Virus record (IMG/VR): IMGVR_UViG_3300023208_000402
Span: 1-20,007 of that record
Origin: a virus
Length of the DNA: 20,007 nucleotides
Reading direction: 5' to 3' (one strand)
Below the pieces are notes generated by a model, which worked only from the letters and a program-made list of their open reading frames with translations, searched no databases and was not told where the DNA came from. Below are positions 1 through 17,592 of the stretch, in pieces. Numbering within the stretch: the stretch's first letter is position 1; each line of letters opens with the position of its first letter. The position numbers and the translations under genes are program-made.

Positions 1-50
1 GGCCAGCAGGCAAGGCCGGGACACCCCGGCCCGCCCTGAGCGTCGACCCG

Positions 51-75
51 ACCCGGTGCCTGCACCGGGTTTTTT
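51..75 (+). terminator. rho-independent terminator, plus strand
   Basis: A perfect 8-bp GC-rich stem (51-58 with 63-70) around a 4-base loop is followed directly by a T run at 70-75. It would end a plus-strand transcript entering from the left edge, probably a host gene whose end lies at or before this window. A frame with TGA at 37-39 is open from base 1 but is too short to identify. A second hairpin at 14-31 (7-bp stem, 4-base loop) lacks a T run. The terminator converges on the minus-strand terminator at 111-147. Confidence 0.72.
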
Positions 76-110
76 GTTGCCTGTCGCGGCAGCCCGGCCG
101 CCGCAACCCC

Positions 111-147
111 AAAACAAAAATGCCTGGTTCCCTTGGAAACCAGGCAT
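111..147 (-). terminator. rho-independent terminator downstream of the tRNA-His fragment
   Basis: On the minus strand a perfect 10-bp stem (147-138 with 129-120), with an 8-base loop, runs into TTTTT at 120-116, then G and TTTT. It lies 23 bases beyond the 3' end of the tRNA-His fragment and has the form expected of that tRNA's own terminator. After prophage insertion it is also the first clear factor-independent terminator downstream of the phage late operon. Confidence 0.75.
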
Positions 148-170
148 TCGGAGCGTTGCCGCTTATTCGG

Positions 171-220
171 TGGGGTGGCTGATGGGACTCGAACCCACGA
201 CAACCAGAATCACAATCTGA
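171..220 (-). other. prophage attachment site: 3' part of a tRNA-His gene (truncated)
   Basis: Read on the minus strand, this stretch folds as the 3' two-thirds of tRNA-His. It has a five-pair anticodon stem (the first pair a U-G wobble), the loop TTGTGAT with anticodon GTG, a variable loop, a five-pair T stem with loop TTCGAGT, the acceptor 3' strand CAGCCAC, discriminator C73 and encoded CCA. The bases upstream (above 220) do not form a D arm or the 5' acceptor strand, so the gene is cut at the anticodon stem. Phage integrases commonly recombine in this part of tRNA genes. A lone 3' half, with phage genes on its 5' side and a terminator on its 3' side, is what the host-distal att site of a tRNA-integrated prophage should look like. 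The crossover lies in or just beside this block. The intact tRNA-His and integrase should lie at the other prophage end, outside the window. Confidence 0.85.
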
Positions 221-232
221 GGCGGGAAGCGA

Positions 233-300
233 GCATTCATGCGGTTTGGCGGCCGTTGCGTGGGAACAAGGGCCGCATTCTGCGCCACGCAATCATGCGG
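233..300. repeat. 12-bp direct repeat pair and inverted repeat next to the att site
   Basis: GCATTCATGCGG at 233-244 recurs as GCAATCATGCGG at 289-300 (11 of 12 identical, 56 bp apart, same orientation). Between them an 8-bp inverted repeat, TTGCGTGG at 256-263 and CCACGCAA at 285-292, partly overlaps the second copy. The whole block lies in the gene-free phage arm between the tRNA fragment and the spanin gene. Position and form would suit integrase arm-type or excisionase sites, but this is inference from location alone. No obvious late-operon terminator with a T run is present here. Confidence 0.4.
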
Positions 301-327
301 CTCCCAGGCCGGTCGTCCCCACGAAAA

Positions 328-843
328 TCACCTCGTCGAGGTCAGCGAGTCGTAGGCCCGCTCGCAGGCGAGGCCGGCGATTCGGGCTCGGTCGTAGGCG
401 GCAGCCAGCTCCCCCGACGTGTCGTCAGACCGCGCGAGCAGGTCGGCGAGCACCAGGCCGGGGCCGGCGGCTGGCGCGCTGCCGGCGGTAGCGGCGGGAT
501 CGGCGCGGCCGTCACAGCGGGCGGCGAGGCCTGCAGCGTGGCGCCGCAGGCGGTCAGCAGCAGCACCAGCGGCAGCAGCATCAGCGCGCGCGGCGCTGGC
601 GGCGGTTTCGGCTTCATGGGCGATCTCCTGGGAGGATTCGACACGTCGGCGGTACTTGTCGAGTTCGGCGGCGGCTTTCGACGCATCGGCGGTCGCGCGC
701 GCGGCGCGCTCGGCGTCCCAGCGCTGCTGCACCGCCGCGCTGCCAGCCTTGACGCCGCCGTGGTGGCCGGCGATGAACAGGCCGGCGGCCACCACCAGCA
801 CCGCCAGCAGCTCGGCGGCCAGGAGCCACAGCGCGGGCGTCAC
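328..843 (-). CDS. Rz: i-spanin, Rz-like
   Basis: A 171-residue protein with a GTG start at 843 that overlaps the endolysin stop (GTGA). It has one N-terminal membrane segment (about residues 3-24, Leu/Ala/Val-rich) and then a long charged, Ala-rich stretch (about 35-115) of the kind that forms the periplasmic coiled coil of Rz proteins. Rz anchors in the inner membrane and pairs with the outer-membrane lipoprotein Rz1 to fuse the two membranes in the last step of lysis. Location right after the endolysin, topology, length and the embedded Rz1 frame all agree. Rz proteins diverge strongly in sequence, so the call rests on architecture and context. It is the last gene of the late operon before the att site. 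Confidence 0.82.
   Translation of the reverse strand: MTPALWLLAAELLAVLVVAAGLFIAGHHGGVKAGSAAVQQRWDAERAARATADASKAAAELDKYRRRVESSQEIAHEAETAASAARADAAAAGAAADRLRRHAAGLAARCDGRADPAATAGSAPAAGPGLVLADLLARSDDTSGELAAAYDRARIAGLACERAYDSLTSTR
342..617 (-). CDS. Rz1: o-spanin lipoprotein, Rz1-like, nested in Rz
   Basis: A 91-residue protein that starts at ATG 617 behind AGGAG (8-base spacing) and lies wholly inside the Rz gene in another frame. A short basic, Pro-rich N-terminus precedes a hydrophobic run ending in the lipobox LLTAC at about residue 24, so signal peptidase II would cleave before the Cys and leave an outer-membrane lipoprotein. The mature part is rich in Pro and Ala (ASPPAV, PIPPLPPAA), as in known Rz1 proteins. 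The frame stays open upstream of 617, but only the 617 start gives a proper lipoprotein signal. It is somewhat longer than lambda Rz1 (60 aa). It should contact the Rz C-terminus across the periplasm. Confidence 0.8.
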   Translation of the reverse strand: MKPKPPPAPRALMLLPLVLLLTACGATLQASPPAVTAAPIPPLPPAARQPPAPAWCSPTCSRGLTTRRGSWLPPTTEPESPASPASGPTTR

Positions 844-1397
844 GCCACCCCCAGGACGCCGCGTGCGGCCGCGTACCGGGTCTGGCGGTCGGCCAGGCCG
901 TTCGTGCCGCCGTTGATGCGCCGCGTGATGCCGATGAAGTCGCCGGCATCGGCCAGCTCGTTCAGCCCGCGGTTCGCCCAGTACCAGCCGGCGCTGGCCG
1001 CCGCCCACTGCGGCAGCTCGAGCAGGTCGGGCTGGGCCTCGAAGTCCGGGGCGCCTGGGAACCAGCGCTGCAGGCCGGCCGCCGCGGCGCGGTAGTTCGC
1101 CCTGCCCGTCACCTGGATCAGCCCGCGGCCCATGTACCGCCGGCCGTCGCCGGGCACGTTGTTGCCGAGGTCGACGCGGCCCTCGTAGCGCTGCTGCGCC
1201 GGCGTGGGCCCCCAGATCTCGCGGGCGTAGCGCAGGCCGCCGCTCTCGTGCCCGACCTGCGCCAGGAAGGCGGCGGCGCGTGCTGGCGTGTTGACGCAGA
1301 ACGCCTCGAGCGTGGCATTGATGTGGTCGAGCCAGCGGTAGCCGCGATCGAGCGGCGCGCCCACGGCGGTGGCCAGCTGGTAGGCGTCGAGCTTCAT
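840..1397 (-). CDS. endolysin, GH19 chitinase-like muramidase
   Basis: A 185-residue glycoside hydrolase family 19 protein that cleaves the peptidoglycan sugar backbone. Family signatures are visible in order: HESGG at 50-54 with the likely catalytic Glu51, REIW with Glu60 as the candidate second acid, YEGR at 71-74, LGN followed by PGDG at 82-85, and GRGLIQVTGR at 90-99, then a Trp-rich stretch (GWYWANRG) and INGG. The ATG at 1397 overlaps the previous gene's stop by 4 nt (ATGA), and its own TGA overlaps the Rz GTG start, so the three lysis genes are probably translationally coupled. No signal peptide or SAR anchor is seen, so release to the periplasm should need a holin. The length is typical of single-domain GH19 endolysins. 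Confidence 0.9.
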   Translation of the reverse strand: MKLDAYQLATAVGAPLDRGYRWLDHINATLEAFCVNTPARAAAFLAQVGHESGGLRYAREIWGPTPAQQRYEGRVDLGNNVPGDGRRYMGRGLIQVTGRANYRAAAAGLQRWFPGAPDFEAQPDLLELPQWAAASAGWYWANRGLNELADAGDFIGITRRINGGTNGLADRQTRYAAARGVLGVA

Positions 1398-1726
1398 CGC
1401 GGCGCCGTCCCCGCGCCATCCAGCGGCGCCCAGTCGGTAACGCGGCGCACCGGGTGCCGCACGCGGCCGCGGCGCAGCAGGTAGCCCAGCAGCACCACCG
1501 CGGCCCCGATGTGCACGCCGGCCAGGCACAGCATGAGCGGGCGGTACGGCGTCCAGTCGCCGCCGAGCAGCAGCATGGAGACGCCCAGCTCACTCAGCGC
1601 CATCAGCACCAGGCCCAGCTTGATCACGATTCCGTCGTTGACGGTGGGCGACAGGATGAGCCACGAGAGGCCGGTGAACAGCACCAGGGTGGCCAGGGCG
1701 TTGATCAGGGAGAGCGCGTCCATCAT
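1394..1726 (-). CDS. small three-helix membrane protein, probable holin
   Basis: A 110-residue protein with three hydrophobic segments at about 8-28, 33-55 and 63-84 and a basic tail (RRGRVRHPVRR), the general plan of class I holins. No named holin family is recognised from the sequence. Two ATG codons stand side by side (1726 and 1723). The first overlaps the upstream stop (ATGA); the second has the better spacing (6 bases) from GGAGG. It lies directly before the endolysin and overlaps it, the usual holin position. The gene upstream is a second small membrane protein, so one of the two may be an antiholin. Confidence 0.6.
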   Translation of the reverse strand: MMDALSLINALATLVLFTGLSWLILSPTVNDGIVIKLGLVLMALSELGVSMLLLGGDWTPYRPLMLCLAGVHIGAAVVLLGYLLRRGRVRHPVRRVTDWAPLDGAGTAPR

Positions 1727-2049
1727 TGGCCTCCACCGAAGCGACGGGTGAGGAACCCCGCGAGATCGAAGGTGCGGATGGCCTGTGTCACCGCGTCGGC
1801 GATGGAGATGCCGAACAGGCCGATGACCAGGCCGGTGACGCTGATCTGCGACGGGCTCAGGTGCAGGCGCTCAGCCACCGCCGGGGCCAGCACGCCGGCC
1901 AGCACCGTGCCGCTGGCGACGTTGGCGACCTTCGTCGGCCAGCCGGTGCCGGGCGCCCAGCGCAGCCCCACCAGGGATCCCAGCAGGCCGAAGGCCCCGG
2001 GGTGAGATGCGACAGCTGCGGCCGCGGCGTCAATGTCTGGCGGCTGCAT
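1723..2049 (-). CDS. small membrane protein, holin or antiholin candidate
   Basis: A 108-residue protein starting at ATG 2049 behind AGGAGG, just after the tailspike stop at 2069. The frame extends a further 22 codons upstream, but that part overlaps the tailspike gene and lacks a good ribosome site. Hydrophobic segments fall at about 17-30 (GAFGLLGSLVGL), 44-58 (NVASGTVLAGVLAPAV) and 68-88 (ISVTGLVIGLFGISIADAV); the C-terminus is short and basic (FLTRRFGG). It is similar in size and layout to three-helix phage holins. Assignment as holin or antiholin relative to the next gene cannot be made from sequence. It opens the lysis cassette. Confidence 0.55.
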   Translation of the reverse strand: MQPPDIDAAAAAVASHPGAFGLLGSLVGLRWAPGTGWPTKVANVASGTVLAGVLAPAVAERLHLSPSQISVTGLVIGLFGISIADAVTQAIRTFDLAGFLTRRFGGGQ

Positions 2050-2068
2050 TACAGGGCCTCCTGGTGGG

Positions 2069-3811
2069 TCATACGATCTGCGCTGCGGCCACGTTGAATC
2101 CGCCCGACACGGCAATACCGGCGCCGGTGACGTTGGTGCAACGAACCTTGACCGCTGATGCGCCAGAGTCCCAATACGCCTCCCATGACACTCCTGCCGG
2201 GATCGCGAAAATGGGGGTCGCCTTGAGCATGAACGTGTTGTCCACGCCGCTGATCGTGACCGTCTGATCGACGCTCGACTGAGCCGGGATGGTGCCGAAG
2301 TTCAAGCTGACATTGACGCGCCCTTGCAGTGCGCGAATAGCGGCTGAGTTGGTCCCTCGGCTGAAGCGCAAGCCTGCGAATCCACCCCCCGTGTTCTCGA
2401 TGTGCACGTCCGCCGTCGCGCTCGTGCTGATCAAGCGGATGATCAGGTTGCGAGTAGTGGCCTCCTTGACGATCTGCCAGACACCTGATGTCGTGGCCTC
2501 GATGAAACGCAGGTCGAACCACGCAATTGGAGACTTGAAGAGCGGCAGGTTCGTGATCGAGCCCCGCTTCCCGACGACGTAGTTTCCAGCTCCGTTGTCG
2601 GTGATCTGGTCGTTCGTCAATGCGATTCGATCGCCAATCACCCAGTTCTCATCGGCCCCGCTGTCAAGGATGGTGCCGCCCGCGGTGTTGTTCTCGGTGT
2701 ATGCCTTCGGCAGGTAATTGCCGCGCGCATACTGGGCGAAGTGGACTCCATAGCCGGTGTTGTTCTGGCAGGCAATTCCGAGCAGCTGGTTCTCGCACGC
2801 CTCGCCAACCTTCAGGCCATCCCCACCATTGAAAGACGCCTCGAACCCGTGGAGGCAGCCGGCGTTTGCATCAGGTACCGTCGTTTCGCCCTCGTGGCTA
2901 ATGAACAGTCCGTGGCGTGTGTTCGATCGGCTGATGGCGTTCTCGATGCGCCAAAGGTTCGTGTTGGCGGAACTCACCGCGTAATCGCCGACCTTGATGC
3001 CATCTCGGCCATGGCCGAAGGACGACACGTTGCGAAGGCTGGACCGGCCGCCAAGGACATGGATCCCGTCTCCACCGTTGCCAGCATCACCTTCGACGCT
3101 CAGGTTCTCGAGTTGAGAGCCGACGTTGACCACGACGCCATTGAAGTTGCCCCGCTTGATGAAGCGCGTCCCAGCCTGGCCAGCGACCGTGCCGTAACCG
3201 TCACCGTGCACCTTGACGAGATTCGGCACCACCAGTTGGGAGGTGAACAGGTACACCCCCTCCGGCGCGTAGATCTTCTTCCGGCCGCAGGAGAAGGCTG
3301 CGGTTAGGGCGGCGGTCACGTCCTGCGTCAGCGTGCCAGCCTTCACGTCCGCGATCTGCGCTTCGGTCATGAAGTCGAACACGCTGACGCTCTCGCTGAG
3401 CTTGTCCTCTACCCAGCGCGCCACCGCTCCAGTCAAGCGCAGCATGTAGGCAATGAGCTTCGACCCCTTGCCTACAGCCGGAGAGGCCAGATTGGCGCCC
3501 AGAGAAGCAAATGCTGCGAAGTCGGCGGACTCCTTGGCATAGACAACCAATCGGCGCTTGGCATCCCTCACGGTCAACGAATAGTCCAGCGCAGCCGTGA
3601 ACACTTGAGTGGGGGTGCCATAGCGGACGGCGCACCCGTTGATGGTCCGGATGGGTTGCTCTGCTGGCTGAGTCCCCGCCGCGTCCCAGTAGACCTGGAC
3701 CGGGTTCGTCTCAGGGTTGTCGTTGGCCGCCCCAAAGTACAGGTAGCCGCTGTCGAGCGGCCGGCCTTGGAGGTCGAAGTACTGTGGGAACGGGGAAACA
3801 GTGGCGAGCAT
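2069..3811 (-). CDS. tailspike with P22-type head-binding domain and beta-helix
   Basis: A 580-residue tailspike. Residues 1-92 resemble the P22 gp9 head-binding domain: PFPQYFDLQGRPLDSGYLYFG, a middle with NPVQVYWD, and a terminal VRDAKRRLVVY (compare MAIYDANGSQV in P22). A linker follows, then FMTEAQIADVKAG, the entry motif of many phage pectate-lyase-like beta-helix proteins. Gly- and Asn-rich coils run from about 180 to 400 (GDGIHVLG, DGIKVGD, GGDGLKVGE). The C-terminal part (about 415-580) looks like a beta-sandwich trimer domain. Tailspikes of this form bind, and often cut, host O-antigen or capsule. The catalytic residues cannot be placed without a structure. The start at 3811 has GAGGA 6 bases upstream. 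It is shorter than P22 gp9 (about 667 aa). P22 tailspikes are trimers attached below the portal-gp4-gp10 stack. Confidence 0.85.
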   Translation of the reverse strand: MLATVSPFPQYFDLQGRPLDSGYLYFGAANDNPETNPVQVYWDAAGTQPAEQPIRTINGCAVRYGTPTQVFTAALDYSLTVRDAKRRLVVYAKESADFAAFASLGANLASPAVGKGSKLIAYMLRLTGAVARWVEDKLSESVSVFDFMTEAQIADVKAGTLTQDVTAALTAAFSCGRKKIYAPEGVYLFTSQLVVPNLVKVHGDGYGTVAGQAGTRFIKRGNFNGVVVNVGSQLENLSVEGDAGNGGDGIHVLGGRSSLRNVSSFGHGRDGIKVGDYAVSSANTNLWRIENAISRSNTRHGLFISHEGETTVPDANAGCLHGFEASFNGGDGLKVGEACENQLLGIACQNNTGYGVHFAQYARGNYLPKAYTENNTAGGTILDSGADENWVIGDRIALTNDQITDNGAGNYVVGKRGSITNLPLFKSPIAWFDLRFIEATTSGVWQIVKEATTRNLIIRLISTSATADVHIENTGGGFAGLRFSRGTNSAAIRALQGRVNVSLNFGTIPAQSSVDQTVTISGVDNTFMLKATPIFAIPAGVSWEAYWDSGASAVKVRCTNVTGAGIAVSGGFNVAAAQIV

Positions 3812-3820
3812 GCTCGGTCC

Positions 3821-5851
3821 TCAGTTCGGGATGGCTTCAGCCGGCAGGGTGGCCTGCTGCGCTTTTTCTTTGGCCTTGGCTGTCCGCAGTGCATCGTTGA
3901 CACGCTGGCGCACGCGGCGGTCCTTGAGGTGCTGTGACAGCACCTTCATGCCGGTAAGCACGGGAACGGGCAGGCCGGTCATCGAGCCTGCGGCCCCGGC
4001 CTCCGCCAGGGCCGCCAGCACGACGCTCGCCGTGTTGCTGTGGTTAACGGTCCCGGGCGGGGTGGTCAGCACGTACGCCGAGATTTCAGCCAAGTCGCGC
4101 GCGGACTGCGCTTCCTTCTTGCCCAGCACCAGATCGAGTCGGCCGTTCTTGTCCAGGCGCTTGACGGCGTCGAGGTACTTGGCATGCGAGAAGATCGTGC
4201 GGCCAGCCTGGTCCGTGGCGCTGTTGGCCAGGGCTTGCTCGCGCAGGTAGCGGTAGGCGGCGCCGCGCAGTTCGGTCCAGGCCTGGGCACCATCCTCGCC
4301 GCCAGACTGCAGCAGGTTGCGCATGAAGGAGACGTCGTCCTGCGAGCCCTTGAGCACCACGCGGTCGAAGACGTTCTCTGCGGCAACCTTGGGGTCTGCC
4401 ATCTTCTTGCGGTTGGCCAGCAGGTCAGCCACTACGGCGCGGTTTTCGAACTTCCGGGCCAGGTCGATGCGCGCCGAGCGAGCGGCCTTGTAGGCGTCGC
4501 CGCCCACGCCATCGGTCATCGCGTCCAGCGTCTCTCGGATGCCGGAGGCCATGGCCATGTCGGGCCCTTCCTGCTTGGTGAACTTGTTCACCGCCTTGCG
4601 CACCGCCTCGAGCTTGTTCAGGTCCAGCGTGCCAGCGACGAGGGAGCCGTCATCGGCCAGCGACGCGCCGCCGAGGCGCACGAGCTCGTCCTTCGCCACC
4701 TTCAGCACCGGCGCCGTCGTTTCACCTACGCGGTTTTCATTCAGGAAGCCCACCAGGCCATCGGTGCCCACCGGCTCGGCCATGTCGCCGGCCTTCTCCG
4801 CCTGCTTGTATAGCGCGCGAACCTTGGCTTTTTCGCTCGCCTTCATGTTGGTGAGCGTGTCCACCACCCGGTTGCCGGTCTGGACGTTGTCGATGGTCTC
4901 GGCCCCGGTGCCATCGATCCAGCGCTCGACCGTCTGGGCGAGTTGGTGGTTTTGGTTGGCCGAGCGCTCCCGGATCAGCTCACCTACGGGCGTCTTGGCC
5001 GTCTCGGCCTCGAAACGCAGTTGATCGGGGTTGCGGGAGGCCTGGCCCTTGGTTAGCGCTGAATCGCCCGTGAAACCGAGTTGCTCCGCCGTTGCGATGC
5101 GCTGGGCAGCGATGTCCGTGCCGGCGGCGCCAACACTACCCATGGTGCCCGGCGTGGCCTCGGCGGACCGGCCAGCACCAGGGGCAATGCGCTCCTGCGC
5201 CGCCTGGACCACCGGCGCGAGGCGCTCACGGGCCGCGGCCGTGGTGCCGCGAGCAACCACCGGAGCGGCAGCGGCGGCGCTTTGGCCGGCATTGGATGCC
5301 ACCCGCGCGATGCCGGCAAGTTCCCCAGTGAGGCCCATGACGGGGACCGTCTGCTGCAGCACCTCGCCAAGTGCCTGCACCTGCTGCTGTCCCTGTTGGG
5401 TGCGGGGCGCGTAGGTGAACCGCTCCGCGCCCTGCTCCGCCTGCTGCTGAACGCGCTGGGCCGCTTCCGGGGTACCGTAGCCGCCGGCAGCGATCGAAGC
5501 CGCAATGCCACCGAGCGCTCCGCCGGCCATGCCTAGCGCACCCCCGGTCGCACCGGTGATCGTTGCGAGGGCCGTCTCCGCTGCGCCGGCCACGCGGTCG
5601 CCGAACGACGGGGCGGGCTGCGGCTGTGCGCCCGGCACCGGTGCTGTTGCGTCAGGCGCCGGCGCTTGGAACCGCGGATCCGACTGCGGGATGGTGGACG
5701 CCGACAGACTGCCGGCGATGTTGCGCACCTGGCGGCCGCGGAAGTCCTGAGCCGCGCGCGCCTCCACCTGGTCGGGCGTGACGTTGTCCGGCACGTTCCG
5801 GTACTGGTGCGTGCTGCCGTCATCGAATGTGAGGGTGACGTCGCGCGGCAT
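3821..5851 (-). CDS. internal virion / DNA ejection protein (gp16 position)
   Basis: A 676-residue protein in the place of P22 gene 16, the largest ejection protein, which leaves the virion with the DNA and helps it cross the cell envelope. Residues 1-47 form a small domain beginning MPRDVTLTFDDGS, a type of N-terminus seen in other phage internal proteins. A Pro/Gln/Ala linker follows, then a Gly/Ala-rich hydrophobic stretch at 88-125 that could insert in a membrane. The rest is mostly helical and charged, with a second Gly/Ala-rich hydrophobic stretch near 610-635 (VVLAALAEAGAAGSMTG). The start lies 3 bases after the upstream stop. Homology to P22 gp16 (609 aa) is inferred from position and composition, not from a clear motif. 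Confidence 0.65.
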   Translation of the reverse strand: MPRDVTLTFDDGSTHQYRNVPDNVTPDQVEARAAQDFRGRQVRNIAGSLSASTIPQSDPRFQAPAPDATAPVPGAQPQPAPSFGDRVAGAAETALATITGATGGALGMAGGALGGIAASIAAGGYGTPEAAQRVQQQAEQGAERFTYAPRTQQGQQQVQALGEVLQQTVPVMGLTGELAGIARVASNAGQSAAAAAPVVARGTTAAARERLAPVVQAAQERIAPGAGRSAEATPGTMGSVGAAGTDIAAQRIATAEQLGFTGDSALTKGQASRNPDQLRFEAETAKTPVGELIRERSANQNHQLAQTVERWIDGTGAETIDNVQTGNRVVDTLTNMKASEKAKVRALYKQAEKAGDMAEPVGTDGLVGFLNENRVGETTAPVLKVAKDELVRLGGASLADDGSLVAGTLDLNKLEAVRKAVNKFTKQEGPDMAMASGIRETLDAMTDGVGGDAYKAARSARIDLARKFENRAVVADLLANRKKMADPKVAAENVFDRVVLKGSQDDVSFMRNLLQSGGEDGAQAWTELRGAAYRYLREQALANSATDQAGRTIFSHAKYLDAVKRLDKNGRLDLVLGKKEAQSARDLAEISAYVLTTPPGTVNHSNTASVVLAALAEAGAAGSMTGLPVPVLTGMKVLSQHLKDRRVRQRVNDALRTAKAKEKAQQATLPAEAIPN

Positions 5852-5854
5852 GGC

Positions 5855-7243
5855 TTACCAGCTCGAAACGGTCGCGCCGCCTTTGGTGGTCGCTGGGGCA
5901 GCGCTACCACTGGCCTGCGGCTGGAAATCACTGCTGCTGGGCTTCGGCCGCGCCGCGGGGATGTCCGGCGCCGATAGCGGCACGCCCGTGCGGACCGAAA
6001 GGTTCTGCCGGCCCTTGTTGACAAGTCGGAATGCCTCGTCGAGGCTCTCGCGGAACTGCTTCTCGCTTTGGGTGCGCTTAAGGTTGGCCAGCGCGGCCTG
6101 CAGCTTCTCGCCCTCGGCGTTCGACAGCGCGCCCTGCCCCTTCATGTTCGGGACCTGCGAAAGGAAGGCCTGTGAGCCCAGTTGCTCGATCAGCGCGATG
6201 GCGTCTGCCCGGTCGTTGGCCGAGGCGGTGATGCCCATCGCGGCAGCGGTGTTGCTGCCCATCAAGGTGTGCGGGTACATCTCGTTGCCAGCGACCGGCC
6301 CGACCACCGTGCCGAGCGCCGGGTTCTTGCGCAGGCGCTCAATGGTGTTGAGCATGTTGTCCATCGTCGCTGCGCTGGCCTCCGCGCCGGCGACCTTCTC
6401 ACGGATCTTGTCGTCAAGCGCAGTGCGCGCCTCCTGCGCCTTGAGTTGAAGTTCCTCGCGCTTGAGTTGGTTGCCCTCGCGGCTAGTGGCCGCATTCATC
6501 GCGGCGATGCGGTTCGCCTCCTTGGCGATCTCGATGTCGGCCACCACCTTCTTGATGTCCCAGCCCTTCTTTTGCAGGTCCATCACGGCGCTCTGGTCGG
6601 CGTACTTCGCGGCAACCTTCGCCGTTTCGGCATCGGCTTCTGCCTTGTTGGCGCCCGCCTCGGCAGTGCGCAGTTCAGCAGGGGCCTTCGCGGCCGCGCG
6701 GTCTTCCGCTCCAATCTTTCCAACGCTCTCGATCACCTTGTCGCCGCCGGGCAGCGACGCGAGCATGAGCCCCATGACGTTCCCGGCGAACTCCGGGTGC
6801 TCACGCACCAACTGAGCCTGCGTTCGAAGCGCATCGATCTCACGCTTATCGGCTCCAGAGTTCTCCATCGCCGTTGCGCGCTGGTCCATGAGGTCCGCAG
6901 CGATCTCCGGCTTGCCGTTCCGGACCGCGGCGTAGTACTGGGACACGTCGCTGAGATGCGATTGCTGCTGATCGGCGCTGCGCAGCTTCCAGGACGATTC
7001 GAACTGCTCGCGTAGCTGAGGCATCTGGACGATGGCGTCCGCGTAGTCCTGGGCCGTCTTCTGAGGCTTGGACATGAACTGCTGCAGGTACTGCTGCTGC
7101 CGTTGCTGCTGCTGCAGCGCGAGCTGTTGCTGCTGTTGCTGCATCTGGTCCTGGCGGATCGCCGCGCCGGCCTGGTAGCCCTTCAGCGCAGATTCGAAGG
7201 GCGTGGCGACGTCGATGCTGTAGTCGATCGGTCCGAGGGCCAT
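5855..7243 (-). CDS. DNA ejection protein (gp20 position)
   Basis: A 462-residue, mostly helical protein in the P22 gene 20 position; P22 gp20 is 471 aa. After an N-terminal segment (GPIDYSIDVATPFESALKGYQAG) comes a Gln-rich tract at about 33-54, then long charged heptad-like stretches (about 190-290, rich in Ala, Lys and Glu) that suggest coiled coil, and a Pro/Ser/Ala-rich C-terminus. The opening 'P..YSIDV..PF..ALKG...G' occurs in many phage ejection proteins. The ATG shares one base with the upstream stop (TGATG), so translation is probably coupled. No enzymatic motif is visible. Confidence 0.7.
   Translation of the reverse strand: MALGPIDYSIDVATPFESALKGYQAGAAIRQDQMQQQQQQLALQQQQRQQQYLQQFMSKPQKTAQDYADAIVQMPQLREQFESSWKLRSADQQQSHLSDVSQYYAAVRNGKPEIAADLMDQRATAMENSGADKREIDALRTQAQLVREHPEFAGNVMGLMLASLPGGDKVIESVGKIGAEDRAAAKAPAELRTAEAGANKAEADAETAKVAAKYADQSAVMDLQKKGWDIKKVVADIEIAKEANRIAAMNAATSREGNQLKREELQLKAQEARTALDDKIREKVAGAEASAATMDNMLNTIERLRKNPALGTVVGPVAGNEMYPHTLMGSNTAAAMGITASANDRADAIALIEQLGSQAFLSQVPNMKGQGALSNAEGEKLQAALANLKRTQSEKQFRESLDEAFRLVNKGRQNLSVRTGVPLSAPDIPAARPKPSSSDFQPQASGSAAPATTKGGATVSSW
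7081..7143 (-). repeat. CAG/CTG-type triplet tract coding for a poly-Gln stretch
   Basis: Mostly CTG and TTG triplets on the plus strand (CAG and CAA on the coding strand) encode about 17 Gln in 22 codons near the N-terminus of the gp20-position protein. Leu, Arg, Ala and Tyr codons break up the run. Such tracts can change length by slippage. Whether this one does is unknown. Confidence 0.6.
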
Positions 7244-7938
7244 CAGAATTTCCCCCCGTTGCCGTAGTAGGTCCCAATGGCCTGGGTGACGCCGTTGACT
7301 GCGCTCGACGTGGCCTTGCCTTGCGCCAGGTATGCGCCTGCTTGGGCCGCGCCTTGCTGCTGCAGCAGGTTCGTCACGTTGCCAGCCGACTGCATGCCTG
7401 CGTTCCCGGTCATGGCGGCCGCGTTCTGGCCGATGCTGGTCATGCCACCCAGCTTCGTGTACTGGTCATTGATCGTCTGGGCCAGAAGAAGAGGCGAGTA
7501 CTGTGCAAGCGCAGCCTGCGTGTTGCCGCCTCGCAGCCCCCCAGTAGCCGAGGCGTTCTGCAGAATGCTGGTCTCGCCCTGCTTTAGCTGCGCCTGAAAT
7601 GCTGGCGAGCTCTGCAGCGCAGCCACTGCCTGCTGCTGGGCATTGGCGCCGTTCAACCCAAGCAGGTTCTGCTGCGCCGACAGCGACGAGTTCCCGGCTT
7701 GCACGTACGGGCTCAGCAGCTTCTGAATCGCTGCAAACTGCTGGGTGTTCTGATCGATGCCGGCTTCTGCTGCGGCCTGTTGAGCATCAGCGGCCTTGTT
7801 CGCGGCGCTGCGCTGAGCGTCGGCCGACACCACGCCTCCGACCACCGCGGCGCCAACCATGGCCGCCGCAACCGTCGTCATCCGAGCCGACAGCCCCTCA
7901 AGCGAGGGCCATCTCCGGGTGTTAGATGAGCTTCGCAT
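7243..7938 (-). CDS. DNA ejection protein (gp7 position)
   Basis: A 231-residue protein in the P22 gene 7 position; P22 gp7 is 229 aa. Two starts compete. ATG 7938 overlaps the acetyltransferase gene by 17 nt and has GGAG 7 bases upstream. ATG 7881 gives MTTVAAAMVGAAVVGGVV, a hydrophobic N-terminus typical of this ejection-protein class, but has a weaker ribosome site. The first 19 residues from 7938 are basic and Ser-rich, and from memory P22 gp7 loses about 20 N-terminal residues on maturation, so the longer form is kept. The remainder is Gln-, Ala- and Asn-rich with AAANKAADAQQAA-like helix, 'LSPYVQAGN' and 'LNGANAQQQAV' motifs, which recur in phage DNA-transfer proteins. Confidence 0.7.
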   Translation of the reverse strand: MRSSSNTRRWPSLEGLSARMTTVAAAMVGAAVVGGVVSADAQRSAANKAADAQQAAAEAGIDQNTQQFAAIQKLLSPYVQAGNSSLSAQQNLLGLNGANAQQQAVAALQSSPAFQAQLKQGETSILQNASATGGLRGGNTQAALAQYSPLLLAQTINDQYTKLGGMTSIGQNAAAMTGNAGMQSAGNVTNLLQQQGAAQAGAYLAQGKATSSAVNGVTQAIGTYYGNGGKF

Positions 7939-8446
7939 ACAGGCGCTCCACGGGCTTGTAGCCCAGGCGTTCGAACAGTGGCCCCTGGTCCATGTGGAGC
8001 TTCGTGGCAGTGAAGAGCTTGCGGACGCCCAGCTTCTTCAACTCTCGCTCCACGGCCTGGAAAAGGCGCATCGCGGTGATTCCGTGTCGGCACTCGGGGG
8101 CAATCCAGTAGACGTCTGTGATGCCGTGCAGCGTGCTGGCGTAGTGGAGGTGCCAGGACACGATGGCGACGTGATAGCCGATCAGCAGGCCATCGCGGCG
8201 CACGGTGAGGACATGCAGGCCGCCCACATCCGCCAGGGCGTCGTAGCGCGCGTGGTCAATATCGAGAGGAACGTCGGCATGGTTCAGCGCCACCTCTCGC
8301 CAGTGGCGGACGAACAGCTCACGGGCCTCTCCCTTAAACGATCTCCAGGGCTCGGTCTGGTACACGGTCCCGCGTTGGACCGTTCGCACGCCCTCAGACG
8401 CTGTCGCGAGGATGGCGCCACCCGTGGCCATGATGGCGCCGATCAC
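7922..8446 (-). CDS. GNAT-family N-acetyltransferase
   Basis: A protein of about 174 residues with a GNAT core: strands around LHVLTVRRDGLLIGYHVAIVSW, then GITDVYWIAPECRHGITAMRLFQAVERELKK, which matches the acetyl-CoA pyrophosphate-binding beta4-alpha3 motif (R-H-G-I-T in place of R/Q-x-x-G-x-G/A). A C-terminal LFERLGYKPVERLYAKLI follows, typical of the GNAT end. The best start is GTG 8446, which overlaps the hydroxylase stop (GTGA) and has GAGG 8 bases upstream. GTG 8455 and ATG 8431 are alternatives. It would transfer an acetyl group from acetyl-CoA to an amine; the substrate is unknown. It fills the slot of P22 gene 14 (172 aa) together with the neighbouring hydroxylase, but sequence relation to gp14 is not shown. 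Confidence 0.8.
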   Translation of the reverse strand: MIGAIMATGGAILATASEGVRTVQRGTVYQTEPWRSFKGEARELFVRHWREVALNHADVPLDIDHARYDALADVGGLHVLTVRRDGLLIGYHVAIVSWHLHYASTLHGITDVYWIAPECRHGITAMRLFQAVERELKKLGVRKLFTATKLHMDQGPLFERLGYKPVERLYAKLI

Positions 8447-9033
8447 TTGGAGCACCTCGCGTCCATCACAAGATGGATACGGTCAATCGGGCTGTCGTTG
8501 ATGACTTCGTGCTCGACCTTGTTGTCGAACCAGAAGACAGACCCGGTCTCCCAGTACGTCACTTCGTCGCCCGCACGGAACTTCACGCCCTCTGCACTCT
8601 GCAGCACGACATGGAATCGGCTGTAGTAGCCGGCATGCTCTTCGGTGTCCGGATGAGGATAGATCCGGCCGCCAGGGGCGATCTTGTTGATAATGACGCG
8701 GCCGAGCCGCTCACCGGCAACCGCGGCGAATACATTCATGACCAGAGGGCGTGCCTCGGTCAGGATCGAATACGCGGGGTAGTCGATGCTCTCGTGCTGG
8801 TCGTACCCAGGCAGGCGGTTCTGCTTGTAGAGCTCGACCTTCTTCTCTGCGCTCTTGCCCTTGAAGACCACCTTCTCCGGGAAGCGGAGCATGATGCTCT
8901 CGACATCGCCGAACGGTCCTTGTGGGTAGTGCCGAAGGAAGGAGTCTTCCTTCCACAGGTCGGGCCGGCGCGCGAGGGCCAGCATCAATGGCATGACGTT
9001 GATGCCAGTACCGAGCCGCAGGAAGTTCCGCAT
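8443..9033 (-). CDS. 2OG/Fe(II) oxygenase, aspartyl/asparaginyl beta-hydroxylase-like
   Basis: A 196-residue protein with the double-stranded beta-helix fold signature of the aspartyl/asparaginyl beta-hydroxylase family. HPDTE at 127-131 supplies His127 and Asp129 as metal ligands, EHEVINDS at 174-181 supplies distal His175, and Arg185 (DRIHL) is the likely 2-oxoglutarate anchor. YYSRFHVVLQ at 136-145 and GSVFWFDNKVEH match the family pattern of strands around the active site. It would hydroxylate a side chain using oxygen, 2-oxoglutarate and iron, releasing succinate and carbon dioxide. The start ATG 9033 has a GA-rich ribosome site. It overlaps the acetyltransferase by 4 nt, so the two are probably co-translated. 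The substrate is unknown; a virion or host protein is possible. A 110-base gap separates it from the fibre gene upstream. Confidence 0.83.
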   Translation of the reverse strand: MRNFLRLGTGINVMPLMLALARRPDLWKEDSFLRHYPQGPFGDVESIMLRFPEKVVFKGKSAEKKVELYKQNRLPGYDQHESIDYPAYSILTEARPLVMNVFAAVAGERLGRVIINKIAPGGRIYPHPDTEEHAGYYSRFHVVLQSAEGVKFRAGDEVTYWETGSVFWFDNKVEHEVINDSPIDRIHLVMDARCSK

Positions 9034-9143: not shown

Positions 9144-10040
9144 TCAAGTGAGCAGTGCCGCGCGGGTAGTGTGCGTCTGGATCGCCGATTGCTGCAGGGT
9201 AAGCGACACCTTCAGCGCCGCTGTTGTGTCGATGGTTGCTGCTGAGTAGGCGCCGTTCGCAATGCCGAGCACCGCACTGGCCAGGGTGGCGCGGCCGCCC
9301 GCGGTTGCTGTGCCGGTGACGCCTGCGGTCAGGCAGGAAATCAGCGCCTCGACGCTGGTCCAGTCGTTCGCCACGCCAGCCGCGCTGGTGGCGAAGGTTG
9401 CCACCAAGGCGTCCGCAGTGGTCCCCGCAGTGCCGATGCGTAGGCGATAGGTCAGCGTGGCCGTGCTGCTCACCTGCCCGATAGCCGAGAGCCGCAGGTT
9501 TCGTCCTGCCGACAGGAATCCTGCGACAAGGCTCCACTGCGCAATTACCGTCTCGCCGGTGCCTGTGCCATTCGTGAGCGCGGCCGCCCCTGGCTGCGCG
9601 GTCAGTAGAGGATAGCGGGCGTCGCCCTCGGTTTGCGTGAGGTACTGAGGGTGCGGGTCAACCGCGGCGACGTGGGCGGCCACAGCGGCAGAGGCGGCGC
9701 CGATCGCGTCGTAGAGCGCATCCCCTTCGGCCTGCTGCAGGTACTGGGGATGCGGGTCGGCCGCAAGTTCGTGGGCCGAGATGGCCGCCACCGCTGAGTT
9801 GGCGGTGCCCTGTGCAGCGGCGGCGTCCGTGATTGCCTCCGCCGCCGCGTTCGCCGCCGCAGCCGCAACGGAGGTCGCCGTGTCGGCTGAATCCTGCGCC
9901 TCGTTGACGCCGGCCGGCAGCGTCGTGCCGACGTCGGACTGCAGGGCCTCGAAGACCTTGATGAGTCGATGATTGCCGCCCAACGCTGCAGCGAGCTCAG
10001 CGCGCGGGATGGGCCTGGTCTGGGTGATGAGGTCAGCCAC
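9144..10040 (-). CDS. tail fibre or tail needle protein (gp26 position)
   Basis: A 298-residue protein with a GTG start at 10040 overlapping the gp10-like stop. Residues 45-90 are Ala-rich and helical, fit for a trimeric coiled coil. Then come two copies, 33 residues apart, of a repeat holding DPHPQYL (95-101 and 128-134) followed by EGDA(L/R)Y; this HxxxDPHPQYL type is common in phage tail fibres. The C-terminal 140 residues (ETVIAQWSL, LTYRLRIGTAGTTADALVATF) are beta-rich and look like a jelly-roll knob. It lies where P22 has gene 26, the needle that plugs the tail and probes the envelope, but no gp26 sequence likeness is evident beyond length class and trimeric helix. A receptor-binding fibre is an equal alternative. 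Confidence 0.65.
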   Translation of the reverse strand: MADLITQTRPIPRAELAAALGGNHRLIKVFEALQSDVGTTLPAGVNEAQDSADTATSVAAAAANAAAEAITDAAAAQGTANSAVAAISAHELAADPHPQYLQQAEGDALYDAIGAASAAVAAHVAAVDPHPQYLTQTEGDARYPLLTAQPGAAALTNGTGTGETVIAQWSLVAGFLSAGRNLRLSAIGQVSSTATLTYRLRIGTAGTTADALVATFATSAAGVANDWTSVEALISCLTAGVTGTATAGGRATLASAVLGIANGAYSAATIDTTAALKVSLTLQQSAIQTHTTRAALLT

Positions 10041-11451
10041 CGTCGCCCCCGAATGTCAGCGGCTCGATCTGGGCCTGCAGCGCGGCGATCGACAGGTGGG
10101 CGTCGGACGTGCCACGGAACCGCTGCGTGCGGTACATCTGCATGTCGCCATTGCGGCGCCAAGCGATGCGCTTCGCCCGCTGGCCCTGCTTGCCGGCGGC
10201 CTTGGGACGCTCCTGGCTCCACGTCTCACCATCCAGGCTGTACGAGGTCCAAATTGTCGGCTCGGGGCCGAGCGCCACGCGGCCGGGGAGCGTGATGAGC
10301 TCCAGTTCATGGACCACCGCGCCGTCCCCGCCGTTGAACAGCATGAGAGTGCCGAACTCCCAGCCAATCTTGGCGCCGAAGTGGTCCGAGCGGTTCGTGA
10401 CAAGTTCACCGATGCCAGGTCCGGTCGGGTCGCCTGCGAGCCAACGGTCGTACGCCCACACGAGGCTTCGAGCGCGGTAGGTTGAGGGCTCCCCGAGGCC
10501 GCTGTCGGCGCTGTACCACACCGGTTCTCCCGCGGCCTTGGAGGCGGCCGCGTCGTAGATCCAGCACTGGTCCGGCAGGTGCATGTAGAGCTGTAGATGC
10601 CCCTTGGACACGCGTGACTCCAGCACCACATCGGCCAGTTGCGCCTCGGTGTAGCCCTCGAGCACTTGGTCGATCTCGCGCGTTGACAGCTTCGTCGAAT
10701 CGCCTGGCTGCATCAGCCACACCGCAGGCGCCTCGTTCTTGCCCCCCCCGAGGAACGCGAAAGACCCAATGAACTCGCTCACCGCGTGAGTACCGATCGC
10801 GCCCCGCGGCACCTGCGCTTCTTCAATCCGCTGAAATGGGAAGTTGTCGCCACCGACGTTCTCGAACACCTCGATCGTGTGCCGGCCGAAGGCATACACC
10901 TCGTTGCGCAACTCCCGCACGGCTTTGATGGGGTCGGGGTCGCTCTCCGCGCTGCCGTACTTCAGCGGGTTGACTGCGGTTGGGTCGTTGAGCTCGGTGA
11001 CGATCAGGTAAGTGCCGTCCGTGGTCATGTAGTACCCGGCGACCCACTGCATGTCCACCACTGTGCCCAGATCGGTATCGGTCACCTGGCTGAGCGTGGA
11101 ACCGTTCCAGTAGTACAGCCGGCCACCAGACGCGATCGCCAAGCGATCGAAGCCATAGTCCAGCGTGACCTGCCCCACCCCGCCGACATCCCCCAGTACC
11201 GTGACGCTTCCGCCTGCGCTCACGCTGCACAGCTTGGTGCCCATGACCCGGTACATGACCCCGTTCCATTCGATCCCGCCGCGGTCAACGCCAGGGCCGG
11301 TGCCGAACAACACAATGCCATCGGCCGGGCGCAGATAGCCCTGGCTGATGCCTTGCGCCTTCGGCACGGCGACCATGTTGCGCGGGTAGCGCGTGCGCCA
11401 GTCGGGGGCCTGGTCTGCGTACACGCCGTTCAGGATCGGGATGGCGGTCAT
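10033..11451 (-). CDS. packaged-DNA stabilisation protein, P22 gp10-like
   Basis: A 472-residue protein, the length I recall for P22 gp10, with matching landmarks: N-terminal NMVAVPKAQGISQGYLRPADGI (P22: NMLATPKE..SSGYLRSFPGI), VYR-type motif YRVMGTKL, LGDVGGVGQV (P22: VGDVAGSGRV), EVYAFGRHTIEVFEN (P22: IVCFGSSTIEYF) and a C-terminal arginine-rich RMQMYRTQRF-like block. P22 gp10 forms a hexameric ring below gp4 in the tail hub, closes the portal channel and carries gp26 and the tailspikes. The start at ATG 11451 has a poor ribosome site. The 45-base gap to the GH5 gene upstream is longer than most gaps here. Confidence 0.88.
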   Translation of the reverse strand: MTAIPILNGVYADQAPDWRTRYPRNMVAVPKAQGISQGYLRPADGIVLFGTGPGVDRGGIEWNGVMYRVMGTKLCSVSAGGSVTVLGDVGGVGQVTLDYGFDRLAIASGGRLYYWNGSTLSQVTDTDLGTVVDMQWVAGYYMTTDGTYLIVTELNDPTAVNPLKYGSAESDPDPIKAVRELRNEVYAFGRHTIEVFENVGGDNFPFQRIEEAQVPRGAIGTHAVSEFIGSFAFLGGGKNEAPAVWLMQPGDSTKLSTREIDQVLEGYTEAQLADVVLESRVSKGHLQLYMHLPDQCWIYDAAASKAAGEPVWYSADSGLGEPSTYRARSLVWAYDRWLAGDPTGPGIGELVTNRSDHFGAKIGWEFGTLMLFNGGDGAVVHELELITLPGRVALGPEPTIWTSYSLDGETWSQERPKAAGKQGQRAKRIAWRRNGDMQMYRTQRFRGTSDAHLSIAALQAQIEPLTFGGDGG

Positions 11452-11496: not shown

Positions 11497-13176
11497 TCAG
11501 GCGCCAATGCCATACGCAGTCGTGGAGCCCGAGCCGAGCGGCCACACGGCGTATAGATCTCGCTCGCCCCCCGTTGGGGGCGATGTCGGCGCCACAAACG
11601 CCCCCGCGTCGTCGTCCTTTAGCCATGCGGCGCACCAATACAACGCGCCACCATTGGCAGTGATTGCGTTCCCGGCGGTGCTCCCAGACGTGCCGACGCC
11701 CCAAGAGCCGCTGTCGCCAAGCCCTGCGGCGTCTCCCGTCGTGGCGGACGAAGCCACCAATACACCATCCACGTAAAGACGGACGCCAACCGTGCGCGAA
11801 TAATAAGCACGGATATGATGCTCCAGTCCGTCCTTAATATTCGATGCTGCGACTATCGTCACAGACCCATAGAGCGCAAGCGGCCTGCCAGAAGAGTCAA
11901 TGCCGAGCCGAAACGTGTTGCCGAAAAAGTATCTCGTCGCGCCTGGCGCCCAGCCAGAAGGAATGCTCACAACCCCCTCAAGCATGCACGGAGCGCTGCG
12001 GAAGACAGGGCTTAAATAGTCTCCGTTTGCGCTGTACCCCGGATTCACAGAATATGCTGAATAGCTGTACCCGCCTGTCATCGCTGTTTTGCCGTTGACA
12101 GTGCCGAAGACGACGCTTTGGTCCGACATTGATAAGACGCCCGCCGAAACTACCGTGGACCCATCGCGCTTTGAGCCGCGCAAAAAGTACGGACGCTGCG
12201 CCAACGACTGTTGTGTGTCAGCGTAATTTGATCCCTGCAAAAGCAGAATATAGGAGCCCGACCAATAATTACCCGCCCCCCATACTGTCCAGCCTATCCA
12301 CACGTCCGAATTGTTATTCATGTGCGCTAATCCGCGCTTCATGCAGTCGAGTGCCAGTTGAGTCGAACTGCCTGCTCCGCCTTCACCAAAAAACAGTTTG
12401 ATCCCCGCCTTGCGGGCGATCACGGTAGCGGCGCTTATGAAATTCCTGAAAATATTGGCGCCACGCACTTGTGCGCTTGTCCCCGAGAAGCCGTCATCGA
12501 AATATTGGTGCAGCTCATACGCGACGTTGTTGTACGGATCGGATATAAGCGCCGGCATGAGATACCCGCGCTTGTTCGTCGTGCCTTCGGAAACGAAATT
12601 GCCGACAGTGCTGCCGCTATTTGGAGGGACGAGGATTAGTTGGCTTGTGGCGCCAGCGCTCCTGATAGCAGATATGCACGCATTACACACCCCGGCCCAC
12701 ACCGTATAGTCGTTCTCCGCAGGTTCGTTCATCAACCCGAACACTACGTTCTGGCTAGATGCAAATACCGCCGCCAGTTTCCCCCAAAAGTCGCTCAGTG
12801 TTGCCGCATTGCAGTCCGATGTAACCGAGTAGTATTTGCCATAGTTGTGGCAATCAAGAATGACTTTGATTCCAAATGCGGCGCACCGAGAGACCATCGT
12901 CTGCAGTCGCCCGACATTGGTTGCGTCCAAGTCCCCGTATAACGTCGGCTGAAGCCTTTCCCACTTGAACGGGAATCTGACGATGTTCACTCCACGCGCC
13001 GCCCAAAACGTAACGCTTTGATTCCCCGGCAGGAAATAGTCAACACCGAACGTGCCCGGCAACACGCCGCCGGCGAACTCCATCCCAGACAGGTTGATGC
13101 CGCAATACTGCACGCCCGTGTCGGGGCCCGTGTACGCTTTAGCAATCGCGGCGCGAGCGAGAGATGATCTGCCCAT
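11497..13176 (-). CDS. GH5 glycoside hydrolase (cellulase-like) with LamG-like C-terminal domain
   Basis: A 559-residue protein. Residues 20-330 carry the full glycoside hydrolase family 5 set: Arg67 (NIVRFPF), HN at 110-111 (LDCHNY), NEP at 150-152 with acid/base Glu151, His223 (ELHQYFD), nucleophile Glu265 (FFGEGG) and the aromatic run GWTVWGAGNYW at 295-305. Family members cut beta-1,4 glucans, mannans and related sugars; the substrate here is unknown. Residues about 385-525 look like a LamG/concanavalin-type sandwich (FRLGIDSSGRPLALYG, HIRAYYSRTVGVRLYVDGVLVAS). No signal peptide is present, so release by lysis or incorporation in the virion is likely. GGAG lies 8 bases before the ATG. It sits between the gp4-like and gp10-like genes, where P22 has nothing. 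GC is about 51% at 12181-12360, against 70% at 11701-11760 and 10081-10140, which suggests acquisition by transfer. Confidence 0.87.
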   Translation of the reverse strand: MGRSSLARAAIAKAYTGPDTGVQYCGINLSGMEFAGGVLPGTFGVDYFLPGNQSVTFWAARGVNIVRFPFKWERLQPTLYGDLDATNVGRLQTMVSRCAAFGIKVILDCHNYGKYYSVTSDCNAATLSDFWGKLAAVFASSQNVVFGLMNEPAENDYTVWAGVCNACISAIRSAGATSQLILVPPNSGSTVGNFVSEGTTNKRGYLMPALISDPYNNVAYELHQYFDDGFSGTSAQVRGANIFRNFISAATVIARKAGIKLFFGEGGAGSSTQLALDCMKRGLAHMNNNSDVWIGWTVWGAGNYWSGSYILLLQGSNYADTQQSLAQRPYFLRGSKRDGSTVVSAGVLSMSDQSVVFGTVNGKTAMTGGYSYSAYSVNPGYSANGDYLSPVFRSAPCMLEGVVSIPSGWAPGATRYFFGNTFRLGIDSSGRPLALYGSVTIVAASNIKDGLEHHIRAYYSRTVGVRLYVDGVLVASSATTGDAAGLGDSGSWGVGTSGSTAGNAITANGGALYWCAAWLKDDDAGAFVAPTSPPTGGERDLYAVWPLGSGSTTAYGIGA

Positions 13177-14243: not shown

Positions 14244-14717
14244 TCACTCCTGAAGGTCGAGATTGCCCGCTTCGTCCACCTGCAGCGGGGAGTCGTCGGG
14301 CACTGGCGTGAACGGCCGGCACCACCGGTTGCCCGCGCCCGCTGGGATCGAGCGGAGCTGCTGCTGACGCGGCATTGCGGCGACCCGTTCGAGGGCGTCG
14401 TAGCCGTCACTCGCCGCCATGCGTGACTCGATGCGGACCGCCTTGCCGTAGCCCGGGGCAATGCGCACAGCGAGGTTGAGATACACCGTCTCCACCGCGC
14501 CAGCCGGCAGATTGCTGTCGTCGTCGAGGTCCGAATCGTCGGGGGACGATGGCACCGGGTAGCCCAGTCGGATGCCGCGGGCCTCCCAGGTGCCCATCAT
14601 CGTGTCGAGCCGGCGCAGCGCGTCCTCGAGCTCCTCGTCTTCCAGATCGAAGACGCGGGCCGCCAAGCCCAACTCAGCGAATGCCTGCTCGATGATCTGC
14701 TGCTTGGTCCAGCCCAT
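14244..14717 (-). CDS. head-tail adaptor / tail accessory factor, P22 gp4-like
   Basis: A 157-residue protein (P22 gp4: 166 aa). It opens with GWTKQQIIEQAFAELGLA, then DLEDEELEDALRRLDTMMGTWEARGIRLGYP, the helical start and the 'L..LD.M...W...G..LGY' signature of this adaptor family, followed by VYLNLAVRIAPGYGK. In P22, gp4 monomers bind below the portal, extend the channel and provide the site for gp10 and the tailspikes. GTG 14720 and ATG 14717 are adjacent; ATG is preferred. It lies after the coat gene and one small gene, as expected from P22 order apart from the two extra fibre-like genes and the GH5 gene that follow. Confidence 0.83.
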   Translation of the reverse strand: MGWTKQQIIEQAFAELGLAARVFDLEDEELEDALRRLDTMMGTWEARGIRLGYPVPSSPDDSDLDDDSNLPAGAVETVYLNLAVRIAPGYGKAVRIESRMAASDGYDALERVAAMPRQQQLRSIPAGAGNRWCRPFTPVPDDSPLQVDEAGNLDLQE

Positions 14718-14729
14718 CACGCCACCCAG

Positions 14730-15092
14730 TCAATCGGACAGGGCGGCAGAGATCAGCGCCGCGAGCTTCTTGTCCGTGACGCGCGGGCCAAAGGGGATCT
14801 TCAGCTCGGCGGCCTTGGCCTCGAGTTCGTCACGGGTCAGGCGCGGCGCCGTGCTGGCCGGTGAGCCGTCGGCATCACCGCTCTCTTCGCCTGCGATGCG
14901 TGCGGCGAACTCTGCATCCCGCTGCGCCTGCTCAGCGTCGGCGGCATCCTTGGCGGCGTATTGGTCCAGGTGCCAGCCTTCGGATTGGGCAGAGGCGAAT
15001 TGCTCCTCGTCGGCGACCTCGAGCACCGAGAAGTCGCCGGCCTCGAGCGCCCACGGGCCGCCCAGGCGGTACAGAAGACGGGGGAAGTCCAT
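14730..15092 (-). CDS. small phage protein with C-terminal HeH/LEM-like motif
   Basis: A 120-residue protein starting at ATG 15092 behind AAGGA. The frame is open for ten more codons upstream, but that stretch covers the post-coat hairpin. The N-terminus (FPRLLYRLGGPWALEAGDFSVLEVADEEQFASAQSEGWHLD) is of a kind seen in small phage head proteins. The centre is acidic and Ala-rich, probably helical or disordered. The C-terminus (LTRDELEAKAAELKIPFGPRVTDKKLAALISAAL) fits the two-helix HeH/LEM or SAP-like motif that often binds DNA or proteins. It lies between coat and gp4-like adaptor, a place often used for head-completion or decoration proteins. The role is not known. Confidence 0.65.
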   Translation of the reverse strand: MDFPRLLYRLGGPWALEAGDFSVLEVADEEQFASAQSEGWHLDQYAAKDAADAEQAQRDAEFAARIAGEESGDADGSPASTAPRLTRDELEAKAAELKIPFGPRVTDKKLAALISAALSD

Positions 15093-16378: not shown

Positions 16379-16427
16379 GATGAGTGCAAGTCCTGTGAGG
16401 GATTGAGGGAATCGCTTTGCACTCACC
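16379..16427 (-). promoter_or_regulatory. stem-loop in the coat leader, ending at the start codon
   Basis: On the transcript, bases 16427-16417 can pair with 16389-16379 in an 11-bp stem (ten Watson-Crick pairs and one G-U) that ends exactly at the coat AUG. The 27-base loop (16416-16390) holds the only ribosome-binding candidate, AGGA at 16394-16391, plus two CCCTCA repeats. Linear spacing from AGGA to AUG is 12 bases, which is long. Folding could either hide the start region or set its geometry. Such a hairpin is a good candidate for post-transcriptional control of coat synthesis. Confidence 0.5.
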
Positions 16428-17499: not shown

Positions 17500-17592
17500 G
17501 GTTGGCCTGGTGGTCTTTGCGTTGGTCGCGATTCTGGTGCCGACTGCTGCATAAACAGGCAATTCACGGCCGACAACGGAAAGCGGTGCTTT

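Follow-up and report, generated by a model that had tools for sequence, protein, structure and literature searches.

The window analyzed here is the entire IMG/VR virus record of 20,007 bp, and this length is the scope of all the searches made within the record. Near its left end lies a piece of a tRNA-His gene. The question raised by this locus is whether the piece marks the end of an integrated phage and, if so, on which side of it the host DNA lies. The piece itself is as follows.

171–219, minus strand: att core, the displaced 3′ 49 nt of tRNA-His(GUG) from position 28 to the CCA, defined by comparison with intact genes.

The minus strand reads CAGATTGTGATTCTGGTTGTCGTGGGTTCGAGTCCCATCAGCCACCCCA there, namely the final 49 nt of the gene: the back two thirds are kept, and the 5′ part is absent, in agreement with the initial annotation. 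No tRNA was called by ARAGORN anywhere in the record. The homology to the intact tRNA-His of Rubrivivax gelatinosus ends at 219, and base 220 gives U27, where the intact tRNA-His genes compared have C27. The interval of 171–220 given in the initial annotation is therefore correct at its start and one base too long at its right edge. In the genus of R. gelatinosus, 70 of the 81 genomes match the fragment; the identity over the 49 nt is 100% in five of these 70 and 98%, that is, one change, in most of the others. The tRNA match runs on through 72 further host nucleotides (88% overall, E 1.5e-38) and is not a chance resemblance.

The features to the left of the core are listed below.

1–39, plus strand: C-terminal end of a presumed host gene (last 12 codons, an open frame to the TGA at 37–39), convergent with tRNA-His.
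50–77, plus strand: intrinsic terminator of the gene ending at 39, with a 9-bp stem and a T run.
99–170, minus strand: host 3′ flank of tRNA-His, consisting of a spacer and a terminator (stem 118–149), with 88% identity over 99–219 to the R. gelatinosus locus L006.

The tRNA-type terminator that had been claimed on the 3′ side of the fragment is thus located at 118–149 on the minus strand, where a 14-bp stem, a 4-nt loop, and a T tract are found. When the tRNA piece is folded together with this terminator, the z value is −3.46, and one of 200 shuffled sequences is equally stable; the tRNA piece without the terminator is unremarkable (z = −1.09). A 40-base pattern covering spacer and tRNA tail had a single match in the genome collection, in R. 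gelatinosus DSM 1709, and the alignment of the window with this genome spans the tRNA, the spacer, and the terminator (window 219 to 99, 88% identity). The tRNA-His gene is intact in that genome and lies downstream of a gene with PPIC-type isomerase domains, which is, in our reading, PpiD-like. Window positions 1–98 had no match among the 81 genus genomes, and therefore the assignment of the host flank rests on 72 nt. Likewise, no convincing alignment with R. gelatinosus or with G008, a genome of the same genus, was obtained for the flank beyond the terminator.

The genome G008 carries a second tRNA-His piece approximately 21 kb from its intact copy, and past this second piece the same spacer and terminator occur (92% identity to R. 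gelatinosus over 78 bp, 17 of which belong to the tRNA). It was also observed that the start of the G008 island at tRNA-His itself resembles the displaced host spacer and terminator (L064, 582–640; L065, 2088–2170). In local alignments of window 99–170 with 54 tRNA-His flanks, R. gelatinosus (L006) ranked first with a score of 79 and the far side of the G008 island (L065) second with 66, while the G008 element's own arm scored 26 and all the other flanks, integrase-side arms included, 24 or less. These scores bear on an alternative in which the left 170 bp are not host DNA but an integrase-side arm, belonging either to the same phage in its free attP form or to a neighbouring tandem element at tRNA-His. 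Several observations are in keeping with such an arm: a terminator directly after the core is common in such elements (5 of 12 arms; also the phage Magia), the start of the G008 element is similar to the host flank (82.7% over 110 bp with the core), G036 and G002 contain tandem copies, and the left gene ending at 39 points at the core, as integrases do. Nevertheless, the two highest scores were given by R. gelatinosus and the G008 far side and not by any arm; none of the six integrase-domain matches in R. gelatinosus is on the contig with tRNA-His; and the 12-residue C-terminus of the gene ending at 39 is, by eye, unlike the integrase C-termini compared. We therefore regard an integrase-side arm as very unlikely, and the claim of host DNA on the left is supported. 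The expected order, with host flank outside (99–170) and phage DNA inside (from 220), is that found in the window.

To the right of the core, after an arm of about 110 bp that is described below, the genes found are those of a phage.

328–840, minus strand: Rz-like spanin (phrog_312 1.5e-35, PF10721 1.5e-28).
840–1529, minus strand: GH19-like endolysin (phrog_181 1.3e-63; PF00182 0.00054, below Pfam's cut-off).
1394–2115, minus strand: two holin-like ORFs, 1394–1726 and 1723–2115 (phrog_2508 9.6e-5, phrog_2359 2.9e-13).
7243–7938, minus strand: P22 gp7-like DNA ejection protein (PF25688 8.9e-9).
10033–11451, minus strand: P22 gp10-like phage stabilisation protein (PF11134 1.1e-36).
14244–14720, minus strand: gp4-like P22 tail accessory factor (PF11650 6.6e-17).
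15155–16426, minus strand: P22-type coat protein (PF11651 2.4e-71).
16519–17562, minus strand: head scaffolding protein (phrog_648 4.2e-52).
17593–19677, minus strand: P22-type portal protein (PF16510 1.1e-142).
19771–20007, minus strand: C-terminus of the terminase large subunit (PF17289 2.6e-6); the record ends inside this gene.

The portal, coat, tail accessory, stabilisation, and ejection proteins place the phage among the P22-like podoviruses. No match to the integrase domain (PF00589) was found in the 20,007-bp record. Two further regions of the record deserve mention. The ORF at 11497–13176 (minus strand), located among the virion genes, matches a GH5 cellulase domain (PF00150, 3.9e-44) and, weakly and below the cut-off, a laminin-G-like one, and its product is possibly a virion-borne polysaccharide depolymerase. 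The region of 7922–9033 (minus strand), beside the gp7-like gene, has matches to a GNAT acetyltransferase (PF00583) and to an aspartyl/asparaginyl hydroxylase-like gene (PF05118, 4e-15). Exact searches for a nearly identical or overlapping phage among the viral contigs, with the letters of the right end and with those of the arm, gave no matches in either case, and among the plasmids the records listed (20 of 31) show short tRNA matches and endolysin pieces.

The arm between the core and these genes has the following structure.

220–330, minus strand: phage-side arm (P′) of the attachment site, with similarity beyond the core to L003, L005, L007, and L070.
257–266, minus strand: proximal putative integrase arm-type site, TTCCCACGCA, 47 bp from the core.
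313–323, minus strand: distal putative arm-type site, inverted, CGTGGGGACGA, 104 bp from the core.

The arm aligned with the viral contigs L003, L005, and L007 and with the genome G036 (L070) at 76–86% over 85–155 bp, core included, and the region of 220–330 resembles the arms of G002–G005 and G036 also outside the core. Across 12 such arms, some of which are not independent since L088–L090 are near copies, a TTCCCACG-like site was found 45–47 bp from the core in seven, and the inverse of the proximal site 102–104 bp from the core in nine. The proximal site is missing at its place in L005, L088, L089, L090, and L094, and the distal site in the second L007 copy, L076, and L094; L005 has a variant word, TTCCAG, in both of its arms. 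TTYCCA-type words occur 14 times in the 12 arms as compared with about once in shuffled sequences, and 17 times on 11 integrase-side arms, neither count being reached in any of 500 shuffles, which preserve base composition only and concern a motif picked after the sequences had been viewed. From this recurrence we infer that the two inverted sites are putative integrase arm-type sites. Inverted TTCCCA-type sites beside the core are expected of the G005/Magia-type tRNA-His integrase group, and the putative ones of the window are at 257–266 and 313–323.

These arms also bear on another alternative, namely that the piece is a degenerate tRNA fragment or a satellite remnant in the host, to which the phage genes became adjacent by chance or by assembly chimerism. 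Displaced fragments can indeed outlast the element that produced them, and the integrase remnant in L007 hints at this. In that locus, the tRNA-His fragment and arm occur twice, 10 kb apart (4817–4924 and 14832–14938), with the integrase remnant after the first, which we read as a tandem or decayed pair of elements. In the window, by contrast, the break coincides with the start of a tRNA-His integrase-type arm, and lysis and virion genes follow immediately upon this arm, so that this alternative is hardly credible. The claim of phage DNA on the right is borne out: P22-like lysis and virion genes follow, beginning with the shared integrase arm.

We thus consider, with a probability of about 93%, that a P22-like temperate phage is integrated in tRNA-His of a bacterium close to Rubrivivax gelatinosus and that the locus is its integrase-distal junction. 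Directly visible in the window are the tRNA fragment, a flank of host type, the phage genes, and the arm shared with other elements; the junction is a correctly read, ordinary prophage boundary. According to the proposed mechanism, a tyrosine integrase would recombine the host gene with the phage attP, in which the final 49 nt of tRNA-His are present, and strand exchange would take place somewhere in the 49 bp common to the two. At the integrase end, the phage copy would then restore a complete tRNA gene; the 3′ end that originally belonged to the host, together with the adjoining spacer and terminator, would be displaced to the far end, which would be the left edge of the window. The prophage end had been said to be fixed to within a few bases; this is too precise, as the crossover can be placed only within the 49 bp of identity.

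An integrase and an intact tRNA-His would be expected at the missing end, and we examined the relatives for this arrangement. G004 and G005 have the appearance of unintegrated phages; their tyrosine integrase of 354 aa stops 77 bp from the core, across it from the arm that is seen in the window. Of the 24 loci encoding a relative of the G005 integrase, 17 extend well past the integrase stop, and a tRNA-His 3′ end was found in 14 of them: within approximately 120 bp in 11, near 0.4 kb in two, and at 1.7 kb in one. The tRNA-His is intact by sequence in five of the 14 loci. The three loci where no tRNA-His end was found are L079, L085, and L093. The full layout, with an intact tRNA-His and an integrase at one end and a fragment at the other, was found in G036 and G123. 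G036 has an integrase with 46% identity to the G005 enzyme; it stops about 90 bp short of an intact tRNA-His adjoining a PpiD-like gene, and a tRNA-His fragment and arm lie 54.7 kb from the intact copy. Since the sequence following this fragment directly follows intact tRNA-His in other genomes, it is probably, on that comparison, a second element. In G123, an intact tRNA-His lies beside the integrase and the fragment is 44.7 kb apart, with a terminator after it. On the G003 contig, the integrase is at one end and the arm, core, and terminator are at the other; G003 may contain two elements, because a second, unrelated integrase domain lies in the middle of the contig.

In the genus itself, close relatives of the G005 integrase (46%) were found in only two of the 81 genomes, and a P22-like prophage in one of the 81, with 26% portal identity. 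Relatives without this phage have the gene complete: tRNA-His is intact in all 30 loci examined, which are the best matches, one per genome. Truncated second copies are present in a number of genus genomes. A truncated fragment in phage-free relatives had been named as an observation that would speak against a prophage junction, and in the five genomes opened (G006, G008, G010, G036, and G047), the truncated copy coexists with an intact one at a distance from it. Two further recurrent sequences were observed directly 3′ of intact tRNA-His genes (L023, L025, and L026; L037, L039, L040, and L042), and these are probably the arms of other integrating elements. The occurrences in the genus suggest that its tRNA-His is an insertion hot spot that has been used repeatedly.

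Insertion of this kind separates the tRNA from its own terminator. We note the terminators in the integrase-side arms: an intrinsic terminator in the tRNA orientation is found within 90 nt of the CCA end in five of 12 such arms, namely L203 (phage Magia), L076, L082, L087, and L091, as compared with 0.17 expected from shuffled sequences. The arms of L071 and L005 form hairpins that do not pass the terminator test. The Magia record itself annotates a terminator after the tRNA-His end. These results suggest that a phage separating the tRNA from its terminator often brings a spare one, and the spare terminator would presumably matter for tRNA-His transcription.

The relationship between this integrase group and the type of portal was also examined. 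A P22-family portal is present in 10 of the 22 other records with this integrase or arm, and this finding refuted the notion that P22-type genes are never accompanied by the attachment module. Eight of the ten (G003, G112, G114, G115, G116, G117, G120, and G125) show the predicted arrangement: in the orientation of the window, the integrase is encoded on the plus strand, to the right of a minus-strand portal. In the other two, G118 and G119, the portal is beyond the tRNA as seen from the integrase and therefore belongs to something else. The portals of the layout set are very distant from that of the window (seven records compared, G115 and G119 being outside the comparison; none better than E 4e-4). 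Records of the integrase group in which the search found no P22-family portal include Magia, G004, and G005. Conversely, the tRNA-His core was found in none of 80 portal loci (the best 80 of 161, up to 10 kb on each side of the portal), and among 24 records of close portal relatives searched whole, one has an integrase relative, at 26%; many of these records may be fragments, so that missing portals or integrases are weak absences. Since the integrase occurs with distant P22-family portals and in records where none of these portals was found, and the window's close portal relatives lack it, the attachment module seems, from these comparisons, to have been exchanged between phages. It is possible, at somewhat under even odds in our estimate, that a single tRNA-His module, frequently with a spare terminator, is common to Burkholderiales phages with different capsid genes and is here found in a P22-like phage of a Rubrivivax relative.

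Insertion into a tRNA gene, giving a regenerated gene and a displaced fragment, is the textbook route for viruses, and P22 integrates using a threonine tRNA. The window shares with the P22-like podoviruses the portal, coat, gp4-, gp7-, and gp10-like proteins, its portal being 46.6–55.9% identical to those of the best three phage records, and differs from them in extra genes such as that for the GH5 cellulase-like protein. The cultured Burkholderia phage Magia (NC_070954), whose integrase is 53.7% identical to that of G005, likewise has its integrase next to a tRNA-His 3′ end, across the core from the arm that the window contains; unlike the window, it has no P22-family portal in its genome, and its core differs in the anticodon stem. 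Table 2 of PMC9658991 lists the tRNA-His att type for four Variovorax podovirus prophages of 52–68 kb (PDNC026_pp_1, EPS_pp_1, PBS-H4_pp_3, and PAMC 26660_pp_2). As described in that source, they resemble the window in the tRNA-His target, in the att core up to one C/T change and an extra 3′ A, and in being classed as podoviruses, and theirs carry a tyrosine integrase; the host genus is different, and the likeness comes from the att core and the description, not from proteins. In Islander islands, a regenerated target gene and a displaced fragment mark the two ends (PMC4383910), and nothing essential differs from the islands in tRNA genes as outlined there. The phage YA3, according to a passage of PMC7326022, uses tRNA-Ser. 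Among the titles listed by the literature searches, none concerns a Rubrivivax tRNA-His prophage.

Both the principle and the att type are already known, the case is an ordinary one, and the textbook picture is unchanged by these results. Their value lies in fixing one end of an uncultivated P22-like prophage and in indicating its host, a bacterium near Rubrivivax gelatinosus. The junction also predicts which integrase, namely one of the G005/Magia group, the missing end should carry. If the proposal on the spare terminators is true, such a terminator would leave the lysogen with a complete tRNA-His transcription unit.
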